Shown here piece by piece: positions 49,695 through 51,687 of a DNA stretch of 64,000 nt. Source of the DNA: Parapedobacter indicus (lineage in GTDB: Bacteria > Bacteroidota > Bacteroidia > Sphingobacteriales > Sphingobacteriaceae); the NCBI RefSeq assembly GCF_900113765.1, contig NZ_FOQO01000011.1:1-64000 (forward strand). The letters run 5' to 3'. The notes under the pieces were generated by a model. That model was given only the letters and a program-made list of their open reading frames with translations. It ran no database searches and was not told the origin of the DNA. Position 1 is the stretch's first letter. Every line of letters begins with the position of its first letter. Both the position numbers and the translations under genes were made by a program.

Positions 49695-51638
49695 TTACTT
49701 TTTGGCTTTTTTTGCGCTTTCTTCGTCTTCCAACTGTTCTTTCAATTGAGCAAGAACATCGAGATCTCCCAACGTAGATTTTTCAACAGAATCCTTCACT
49801 TTCCGTACCGCAGATGTAGCTGCTCTGGCCTCTTTCTTACGATTGTTGAATTCTTCCATACGTGCTTCAGCCCGTTGATCTTCCCAGATGCGGGAATGCG
49901 AGATCACCACACGCTTATTGTCCTTGTTGAATTCGATGATTTTGAAGTCAGCAGTCTCATCCAATTTCAATACGCTTCCATCTTCTTTAACGCTGTGTTT
50001 AGCAGGGCAGAACCCTTCAACACCATAGGGCAGCGATACAATGTTTCCTTTTTCGCCTACCTTGATAACCGTTCCTTGATGGATGGAATCCAGCGTGAAA
50101 ATGGTTTCGAACGTATCCCATGGATTCTCTTCCAATTGCTTGTGACCCAAGCTCAGCTTCCGGTTTTCTTCGTCAAGCTCCAGAACAACCACTTCTAATT
50201 CCTCACCAACTTTGGTGAATTCATTGGGGTGATTGATTTTCTTAGACCAAGAGAGATCCGAGATGTGAACCAATCCATCGATACCTTCTTCCAACTCCAC
50301 AAACACACCGAAGTTCGTCATGTTTTTCACTACGGCCTTTTGCTTGGAGCCAATTGGATAACGCTCGGCGATGTTTTTCCAAGGGTCGGGCGTCAATTGT
50401 TTGATGCCAAGGCTCATTTTGCGCTCGTCGCGATCCAATGTAAGGATTTGAGCTTCTATTTCGTCGCCCACCTTCAGGAATTCAGACGGGCTGCGCAAGT
50501 TTTGCGACCAAGACATTTCCGAAACGTGAATTAATCCCTCTACACCCGGAGTGATTTCGAGGAACGCTCCGTAATCGGCTACCGTTACGATCTTGCCTTT
50601 TACCTTTGAACCCACTTCCAATGCAGCATCCAATGATTCCCAAGGATGTTCGGTCAGTTGTTTCAAGCCGAGCGCAATCCGTTTTTTCTCGTCGTCGAAA
50701 TCGAGTACAACGACGTTGACGGTTTGATCAAGCTGCAATACTTCTTTCGGGTGTTCGATACGACCCCACGAAATATCGGTGATGTGCAACAGACCGTCTA
50801 CGCCACCCAAATCGATGAATACACCGAAATCGGTAATATTCTTGACGGTACCTTCCAATACCTGTCCTTTTTCGAGTTTGGAAACGATTTCGGTTTTTTG
50901 ATTTTCCAAATCATCCTCGATAAGTACTTTATGCGAAACAACCACATTCTTGAATTCATGGTTGATTTTCACCACCTTGAATTCCATGGTTTTGCCTACA
51001 TAAATGTCGTAGTCGCGGATTGGTTTTATATCAATTTGAGATCCCGGCAAGAAAGCTTCCACGCCTTTGATGTCCACAATAAGACCACCTTTGGTACGGC
51101 TTTTTACAAAGCCATCGATGATCGTATCATTTTCAAGCGCTTCATTAATTTCTTCCCAAGATTTTTGCGTCTTGGCACGTTTGCGCGAAAGTACCAACTG
51201 ACCGTTGGCATCTTCCTGTGACTCAACGAATACGTCTACCACATCACCCACTTTTAAATCCGGGGTGTCGCGGAATTCAGAAAGGGATACCAAACCATCC
51301 GACTTGAACCCGATGTTGAGTACCACATCTTTGTTGTTGATGGATACCACGGTTCCCTGTACAATTTCACCCTTGTTGACCGAATTGAAAGTACCGGCGT
51401 AGAGGTCTTCCAGCTTAGCGCGCTCTTCGTCGCTATAGTTGCCAAAGCCCTTTTCATCCTTGTCCCAATCAAAATCATCGTCAGGAGTGCTCCAGGTGGT
51501 TGATTTGATTTCGTCCATGAACTTCGAATCGGCCTCCGATTCGATGTCTTCCTTCTCCTTCACCAAGGTATCCTCAGTGTCTTGAAGTTCAGCTTTTTTT
51601 GCTGCTAGTTCCTTTTCTGCTTCTTGTTTTTTTGCCAT
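49695..51638 (-). CDS. rpsA: 30S ribosomal protein S1
   Basis: This 647-residue protein binds mRNA on the small ribosomal subunit. Six S1/OB domains are visible, at about 89-153, 170-236, 257-326, 342-411, 429-498 and 514-583; typical repeats include TDFGVFIDLGGVDGLLHITDISW and TNFGVFVELEEGIDGLVHISDLSW. It is longer than E. coli S1 (557) because of an 88-residue charged N-terminal extension, usual for Bacteroidota, and a Lys/Glu-rich tail. Expression appears tightly controlled: there is a -7 element, a leader hairpin, a Shine-Dalgarno site and a two-codon ORF just upstream, and a strong terminator after the stop. Confidence 0.97.
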   Translation of the reverse strand: MAKKQEAEKELAAKKAELQDTEDTLVKEKEDIESEADSKFMDEIKSTTWSTPDDDFDWDKDEKGFGNYSDEERAKLEDLYAGTFNSVNKGEIVQGTVVSINNKDVVLNIGFKSDGLVSLSEFRDTPDLKVGDVVDVFVESQEDANGQLVLSRKRAKTQKSWEEINEALENDTIIDGFVKSRTKGGLIVDIKGVEAFLPGSQIDIKPIRDYDIYVGKTMEFKVVKINHEFKNVVVSHKVLIEDDLENQKTEIVSKLEKGQVLEGTVKNITDFGVFIDLGGVDGLLHITDISWGRIEHPKEVLQLDQTVNVVVLDFDDEKKRIALGLKQLTEHPWESLDAALEVGSKVKGKIVTVADYGAFLEITPGVEGLIHVSEMSWSQNLRSPSEFLKVGDEIEAQILTLDRDERKMSLGIKQLTPDPWKNIAERYPIGSKQKAVVKNMTNFGVFVELEEGIDGLVHISDLSWSKKINHPNEFTKVGEELEVVVLELDEENRKLSLGHKQLEENPWDTFETIFTLDSIHQGTVIKVGEKGNIVSLPYGVEGFCPAKHSVKEDGSVLKLDETADFKIIEFNKDNKRVVISHSRIWEDQRAEARMEEFNNRKKEARAATSAVRKVKDSVEKSTLGDLDVLAQLKEQLEDEESAKKAKK

Positions 51639-51687
51639 TAATTCATATTTCTCCTTTTTCCCGATTTTTATCGGGACTGCAAAGGTA
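51636..51687 (-). promoter_or_regulatory. rpsA promoter and structured leader
   Basis: On the minus strand, TACCTTTG (51687-51680) is an exact -7 element. The predicted transcript then begins almost directly with a perfect hairpin, CCCGAT-AAAA-ATCGGG (51675-51660). AGGAG follows at 51655-51651, four bases before ATGAATTAATGG. That sequence holds a start-stop-like ORF (ATG AAT TAA, 51646-51638) whose stop overlaps the rpsA start codon by one base. The AGGAG is 12 bases from the rpsA ATG, too far for an optimal site, so it serves the tiny ORF better. Confidence 0.65.

Follow-up and report, generated by a model that had tools for sequence, protein, structure and literature searches.

The leader of rpsA in Parapedobacter indicus is, to judge from sequence comparison and predicted folds, a short element that spans the family Sphingobacteriaceae and consists of a 5'-terminal hairpin, an open Shine-Dalgarno (SD) site of 7 nt and an A+T-rich spacer. 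Because hairpin and SD site are strongly conserved, and this in a lineage whose anti-SD is reportedly hidden, their combination on a ribosomal-protein mRNA likely points to a special mode of initiation. The first-pass annotation of this DNA had drawn attention to a good SD site on such an mRNA, and this observation has gained in weight, the site being kept in all 89 family leaders counted. Its further suggestion, a self-regulating switch, may possibly apply.

Bacteroidota hide the anti-SD, and regulatory use of an SD has been demonstrated for rpsU (PMC9976891). With an invariant SD, rpsA would become a second natural case in which to test the purpose of the hidden anti-SD; the protein it encodes has been proposed to take the place of SD pairing in the selection of starts in the phylum (PMC3155529), and bS1 homeostasis in SD-poor bacteria would become testable with simple reporters.

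The rpsA locus and its leader

The window is the whole stretch of 64,000 nt that was analysed. NCBIfam NF004953 (912.7 bits, cut-off 720) identifies the rpsA product as 30S ribosomal protein S1, and this product shares 94, 94, 95 and 99% identity with its counterparts in Parapedobacter species, the closest named relatives. On the minus strand TACCTTTG is followed 3 nt on by the hairpin, then by AAAGGAG, ATGAATTAATGG and rpsA, with 20 nt from the end of the stem to the rpsA ATG (Table 1). The elements listed in the first-pass annotation (among them hairpin, AGGAG, ATG-AAT-TAA and rpsA start) are all present on this strand; the hairpin, given there as CCCGAT-AAAA-ATCGGG, has one pair more. The TAnnTTTG box occupies positions -12 to -5 in F. 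psychrophilum (PMC9723704), and because of this box position we infer that the hairpin, which begins about 3 nt past the box, lies at or beside the 5' end of the rpsA mRNA. Elsewhere in the window, a match to a group II intron (RF00029, 56.3 bits) is found at 20-94 on the plus strand.

Table 1. Features of the rpsA leader and gene, in positions of the window
Feature	Positions	Strand	Basis or remark
TACCTTTG, -7 promoter box of TAnnTTTG type	51680..51687	(-)	sequence reading; box type per PMC9723704
5'-terminal hairpin, 7-bp stem TCCCGAT/ATCGGGA, AAAA loop	51659..51676	(-)	predicted fold, covariation
Hairpin pieces: TCCCGAT, AAAA, ATCGGGA	51676-51670, 51669-51666, 51665-51659	(-)	sequence reading
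AAAGGAG Shine-Dalgarno site	51651..51657	(-)	complementary to CUCCUUU of the 16S tail
A+T-rich spacer, TTA immediately before ATG	51639..51650	(-)	invariant T (-3) and A (-1), each in 89/89 family leaders
ATG-AAT-TAA two-codon frame	51638..51646	(-)	regarded as a side effect of a single substitution in the common ATTAATTAATG string
rpsA, 30S ribosomal protein S1, 647 aa, six S1 stretches	49695..51638	(-)	start ATG 51638-51636

Conservation in the family Sphingobacteriaceae

Ninety rpsA leaders were read, 30 from matching loci and 60 further ones, with a match in 149 of the 151 genomes searched; an order-level genome search gave 61 genomes, every one a member of the Sphingobacteriaceae. The counts cover 89 leaders, whose last 45 nt comprise 79 distinct sequences; L129 was left out, as its match starts at residue 32. 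Read by eye, L129 has GTCCCCGC...GCGG, AAAAGGAG and an apparent TTG start.

AAAGGAG is found in 89 of 89 leaders, and a hairpin is predicted 5' of it in the same 89, so that two of the elements whose conservation in related rpsA leaders had been named as a check are kept. The stem starts 3 nt past TTTG in 77 leaders, and the longest perfect 5' stem, which measures 4 bp in 6 leaders, reaches 5 bp or more in the remaining 83. A separate collection contributed 47 named loci. AAAGGAG together with an ATG start is seen in 45 of them, 23 of which bring leaders absent from the first set; the other two, L049 and L055, carry GGGAAAAGGAG ahead of TTG.

Fold and covariation of the hairpin

The 47-nt leader of P. 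indicus folds at -10.1 kcal/mol into a single hairpin upstream of an open start region; shuffled versions average -4.4 (z -3.17), and none of 200 folds at so low an energy. The SD site is predicted to be open in the family leaders as well: its unpaired probability is 0.91 on average and 0.46 at the lowest, and predicted pairing reaches into the AAAGGAG stretch in 3 of 89. A simple switch in which the hairpin masks the SD was considered and rejected because the predicted fold leaves the site mostly unpaired.

Since a MAFFT alignment of the 79 distinct leaders put the stems out of register, a covariance model was built from 23 well-aligned leaders. It realigned 81 of the 90 leaders; all 81 given were matched (80 distinct rows). 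In this alignment, which leans towards structure in that it was fitted to the model and holds the 23 training sequences, 96.6% of 503 stem cells are paired, 71 cells are double changes and 7 of 7 stem pairs have changes on both sides; the covariation score is 0.378, against 0.133 for shuffled and at most 0.061 for slid versions. Compensating changes are visible by eye, for instance CCCGAT/ATCGGG, CCCTAC/GTAGGG and CCAATT/AATTGG. A covarying structure in the 5' leader of a ribosomal-protein gene, as asked of an r-leader, is present. The stem sequence is variable except for UCC/GGA at its base, which favours a role of the hairpin through its structure over one tied to its sequence.

Shine-Dalgarno site and start context

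The 16S gene of P. indicus runs on as ...GGCTGGAATACCTCCTTTCTA and therefore contains the anti-SD core CCUCC, to which the rpsA site is complementary as listed in Table 1. Gene starts were surveyed in 326 genes in 464 kb of the same genome, crudely called by first ATG. AAAGGAG at -24 to -5 stands before one of the 326, namely rpsA. A general SD signal was not found in this set, AGGAG or GGAGG preceding 11 genes as against 6, 10, 9 and 4 in mock windows. The pattern AAAGGAGN{9,14}ATG occurs at 119 places in the genome, compared with 100 for the reversed control, and 3 of the 30 places examined pass a crude gene-start test; no weight is placed on this pattern. By raw energy the rpsA pairing (-9.5 kcal/mol) ranks 12th of 325 own genes, and mock windows reach lower, so that the case for the rpsA site rests on conservation across leaders and not on pairing strength. 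With the leader covariance model R1, rpsA is hit at E 7e-11 and the next place in the genome at E 2.34; by this model the structure stands before rpsA and not elsewhere in the genome, as is also asked of an r-leader. A 40-codon ORF (MARTIRVKIYKSAITG...) on contig 9 of the genome (14631-14650, L368) has an rpsU-like extended SD, GAAAGGAGGTAT, which pairs at -19.8 kcal/mol; the ORF has no match in Pfam or NCBIfam.

The distance from GGAG to the rpsA ATG is 12 nt in 66, 11 nt in 19 and 14 nt in 4 of the 89 family leaders. In the P. indicus leader GGAG lies 12 nt from the rpsA ATG and 4 nt from the ATG of the two-codon frame. Of 30 rpsU leaders from the family, 18 carry GGAG, at 12 nt (11 leaders), 13 (3), 10 (2), 11 (1) and 14 (1), the other 12 having a variant core and standing outside the spacing counts. 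The rpsA spacing thus equals the commonest spacing of rpsU, whose SD is in use in F. johnsoniae (PMC9976891), and for this reason the AGGAG is read as serving rpsA itself. The first-pass annotation had assigned it to the two-codon frame, which the spacing does not support (11-12 nt to rpsA in 85 of 89 leaders); that assignment is explained by the general SD spacing habit of about 7-9 nt (PMC6847099), by which neither start is ideal.

The immediate start context of rpsA is equally constant (Table 1). At -3, 37% of the 326 own genes have A and 21% have T. As A at -3 is a positive determinant in F. johnsoniae (PMC6847099), rpsA, with its T, is a gene without the usual determinant but with an SD. 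T at -3 is no rule for SD genes, since A is found there in 16 of 30 rpsU leaders. Nor does every SD come with a hairpin: a perfect 5' stem reaches 5 bp or a greater length in 83 of 89 rpsA leaders and in 6 of 29 rpsU leaders, one of the 30 having no promoter box by the search pattern.

There is no conservation of the two-codon frame: 13 of 89 family leaders have an ATG somewhere from GGAG to the start of rpsA, namely those of 7 of the 9 genomes of the genus set (own genome included), L160 and L164 with the same ATGAATTAATG, and those of four genomes of one genus with ATGAAAAAATAAATG; the two remaining genus genomes read ATT and ATC. The commonest string before the rpsA start is ATTAATTA (45 of 89 leaders), so that one T-to-G change makes the frame. 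AUG is scarce near starts in Bacteroidetes (PMC6847099). Five of the 45 ATG-start leaders of the named set have such an ATG (L035, L053, L062, L068 and L073); its frame differs in L062 and L068, and the genomes of L035 and L073 are already part of the genus set. Among the 326 own genes a tiny ORF (1-4 codons, with TAATG stop/start overlap) precedes 3, rpsA included, a count taken without shuffle control. Neither an upstream ORF conserved in relatives nor a ribosome-binding site spaced for it, as would mark an upstream minigene, is seen here (13 of 89 leaders; 4 nt as against 12 nt to rpsA). Of the two features whose loss in close relatives was to count against the first-pass annotation, the hairpin has stood and the tiny frame has not.

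rpsA leaders in other Bacteroidia

From other families of the class 66 rpsA leaders were read, with a match in 118 of 119 genomes searched; L230, L246 and L263 did not reach the leader. Ten leaders from eight families are of the SD type by eye (L229, L234, L242, L243, L264, L273, L277, L282, L285 and L287), and SD-type rpsA starts are, on this reading, a minority outside the Sphingobacteriaceae. Within the ten, L264 and L273 have the motif AAAGGA only, L282 is ambiguous, and L229, L234, L242 and L243 lack an in-frame ATG ahead of the conserved part and have TTG behind the SD. A short inverted repeat directly before the SD is recognizable by eye in L234, L242, L243, L264, L273 and L287. A loose purine motif in a 120-nt window occurs in 14 of 66 leaders as against 8 of 64 mock windows; because the count hardly exceeds that of the mock windows, recurrence of the SD at class level is given no weight. 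In several lineages (L229, L234, L242, L243, L049, L055 and L129) rpsA seemingly starts with TTG behind a purine motif, an arrangement that looks like a weak start codon matched by an SD.

A second type of rpsA leader has ATACAA before the start in 24 of 66 leaders (e.g. L280, L271, L283 and L275), laid out as CU, a covarying stem and, a few nt short of the start, AUACAAAU. In 17 of 23 leaders the best stem that ends at ATACAA has at least 6 bp, a count made without shuffle control. For 17 leaders of this type, chosen from 29 for clear stems and hence biased in their pairing figures, 99.0% of 104 cells pair and the covariation is 0.731, against 0.243 shuffled. The corresponding model, R2, gave 18 places at E of 0.1 or below in 17 of the 119 genomes: 13 just upstream of rpsA (12 in training genomes; G221 is not one) and 5 elsewhere (E 0.038 to 0.045); it missed 5 of its 17 training leaders. 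Rfam had no match on the ATACAA-type leader in the 11 loci scanned.

Three further observations concern rpsA in the class. Bacteroidales leaders (L081, L083-L087, L092 and others) have strings like AATAATGTCTAACTTATTAATTA shortly before the start, and the ATG within them is sometimes TTG or AAG (L085, L091, L104), which makes the string look like a nucleotide motif and not a peptide. In one genome a Flavo-1 RNA (RF01705, 58.1 bits) lies about 210 nt upstream of rpsA (L293:174-249), and one genome has, in addition to its normal rpsA, a gene for a second S1-like protein of 55% identity (G107:C1:677145-678419).

Proposed mechanism and alternative explanations

Our leading proposal, held tentatively, is that rpsA may be initiated by an SD-led route, perhaps independent of bS1, which would protect the supply of bS1, with the hairpin as a 5'-terminal cap. 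The A+T-rich spacer sets the rpsA start codon 11-12 nt past GGAG, and initiation of rpsA by way of its SD and with T at -3 would need bS1 less, because most mRNAs of these bacteria have no SD and are believed to depend on bS1 and on A at -3. In a shortage of bS1 the SD-less mRNAs would suffer first and rpsA would be spared, provided that it behaves like rpsU toward bS1, and the level of bS1 would be restored. Added bS1 raised the amplitude of initiation on SD-less mRNA about 2-fold and hardly changed that on rpsU (PMC9976891), and binding of bS1 to unstructured leaders has been proposed as the start-selecting step in Bacteroidetes (PMC3155529). The hairpin would stabilise the mRNA and keep the start region open without masking the SD; in Prevotella a hairpin of -9 kcal/mol about 20 nt upstream did not lower expression (Accetto and Avgustin, PMC3155529). 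As counterpoints, stimulation by bS21-lacking ribosomes needs an extended SD (PMC9976891), and Prevotella reporters gave no response to an SD (PMC3155529). A wider version is more doubtful: invariant SD, T at -3 and terminal hairpin would form a "supply valve" for bS1 that lets bS1-poor ribosomes translate rpsA, and other Bacteroidia would use the second leader (CU-stem-AUACAAAU) to the same end.

A serious rival is stabilisation with strong translation and without any control. The hairpin would then be a 5'-end stabiliser of many strongly expressed transcripts and the SD a booster of constitutive translation, which we consider possible and rather less probable than the SD-led route. TANNTTTGCANTCC occurs 27 times in the P. 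indicus genome and 0 times for the reversed control; 11 of the 27 places lie within about 80 nt upstream of a tRNA gene, as would suit stabilisation, and the remaining ones include rpsU and rpsA, a few being inside genes. The initial CAGUCC at these places often has a stretch complementary to it downstream. At 10 of the 27 TTTGCANTCC places, against 3.7 expected, the 5' stem is perfect over 5 bp or a greater length (p 0.0025, 2000 shuffles); rpsA is one of the ten and its 7-bp stem is the longest. The 5'-terminal hairpin is for this reason a partly general habit, which fits the rival, as do the stem sequence that varies apart from its UCC/GGA base and the mostly open SD. A 5' hairpin at all promoters was tried and rejected: 6.0% of 84 promoter-like sites reach -7 kcal/mol or lower as against 1.6% shuffled, a modest excess, and the stem enrichment is clearer in the TTTGCANTCC subset. 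Against plain stabilisation, the genome has no general SD signal, so an SD is no usual booster of translation there, the SD geometry is common to rpsA and rpsU, and a T at -3 in every family leader is unlike selection for maximal initiation.

Control of the rpsU type, in which ribosomes without bS21 or bS18 and with a freed anti-SD would prefer rpsA, is unlikely. The complementarity to the own anti-SD and the geometry shared with rpsU would suit it, but the pairing is weak by comparison. Computed throughout with the 16S tail of P. indicus, it ranges from -9.0 to -14.2 kcal/mol in the 89 rpsA leaders (mean -9.9) and from -16.5 to -20.7 in the 30 rpsU leaders (mean -19.3), and the -9.5 kcal/mol of the P. 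indicus rpsA leader misses the mark of below -13 kcal/mol published for rpsU-type sites (PMC9976891).

Autorepression, with bS1 binding its own leader in the gamma-proteobacterial style, is hardly better placed. The conserved A+T-rich single strand beside the hairpin would offer a target, for in E. coli the A+U-rich single strands in the leader of bS1 are what the protein is thought to recognise (review PMC10931766). According to the same review the gamma-proteobacterial site has no canonical SD and creating one abolishes repression, which makes an E. coli-type mechanism improbable for leaders in which AAAGGAG is invariant.

Reinitiation, with ribosomes starting on the two-codon ORF and restarting at the overlapping rpsA ATG as the first-pass annotation had it, is rejected as a conserved mechanism and very improbable at this locus too, for although frame and TAATG overlap are present here and in 7 of 9 genus genomes, the upstream ATG is missing in 76 of 89 family leaders, the SD spacing suits rpsA, and 85 of 89 leaders retain the TA directly before ATG (TAATG), whether an upstream ATG is present or not.

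Comparison with known systems

Rfam 15 has no match at the P. indicus rpsA leader, an S1 leader is missing from Table 1 of Eckert and Weinberg 2020 (PMC7247131), and among the matches listed in a literature search no title or abstract deals with a Sphingobacteriaceae rpsA leader. In the summary that McNutt et al. give of Jha et al. 2021, SDs are frequent at particular ribosomal genes, rpsU and rpsR among them; their own main text names rpsA once, in the methods (PMC9976891). As a ribosomal-protein leader the element may therefore be new, and its SD part may have been listed before, in the gene lists or supplements of Jha et al. 2021.

The r-leaders of S4, L13, S15 and S16 described from Bacteroidia and Flavobacteria (PMC7247131) likewise have a covarying 5' structure; the stem of the rpsA leader differs from them in its slight sequence conservation beyond the base. 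The autogenous rpsA region of gamma-proteobacteria (PMC10931766) is also an rpsA leader with an A+T-rich single strand, and is set apart by the SD, missing there according to the review and invariant here. A further parallel is the extended SD of rpsU (bS21) in Bacteroidota (McNutt et al. 2023, PMC9976891), which likewise belongs to the mRNA of a 30S protein in a lineage whose anti-SD is hidden. The family rpsU leaders share with rpsA the commonest GGAG-to-ATG spacing; rpsA is a different gene with a 7-nt core complementarity and weaker pairing, and it carries a 5' hairpin, whereas 23 of 29 rpsU leaders are without a stem of at least 5 bp.
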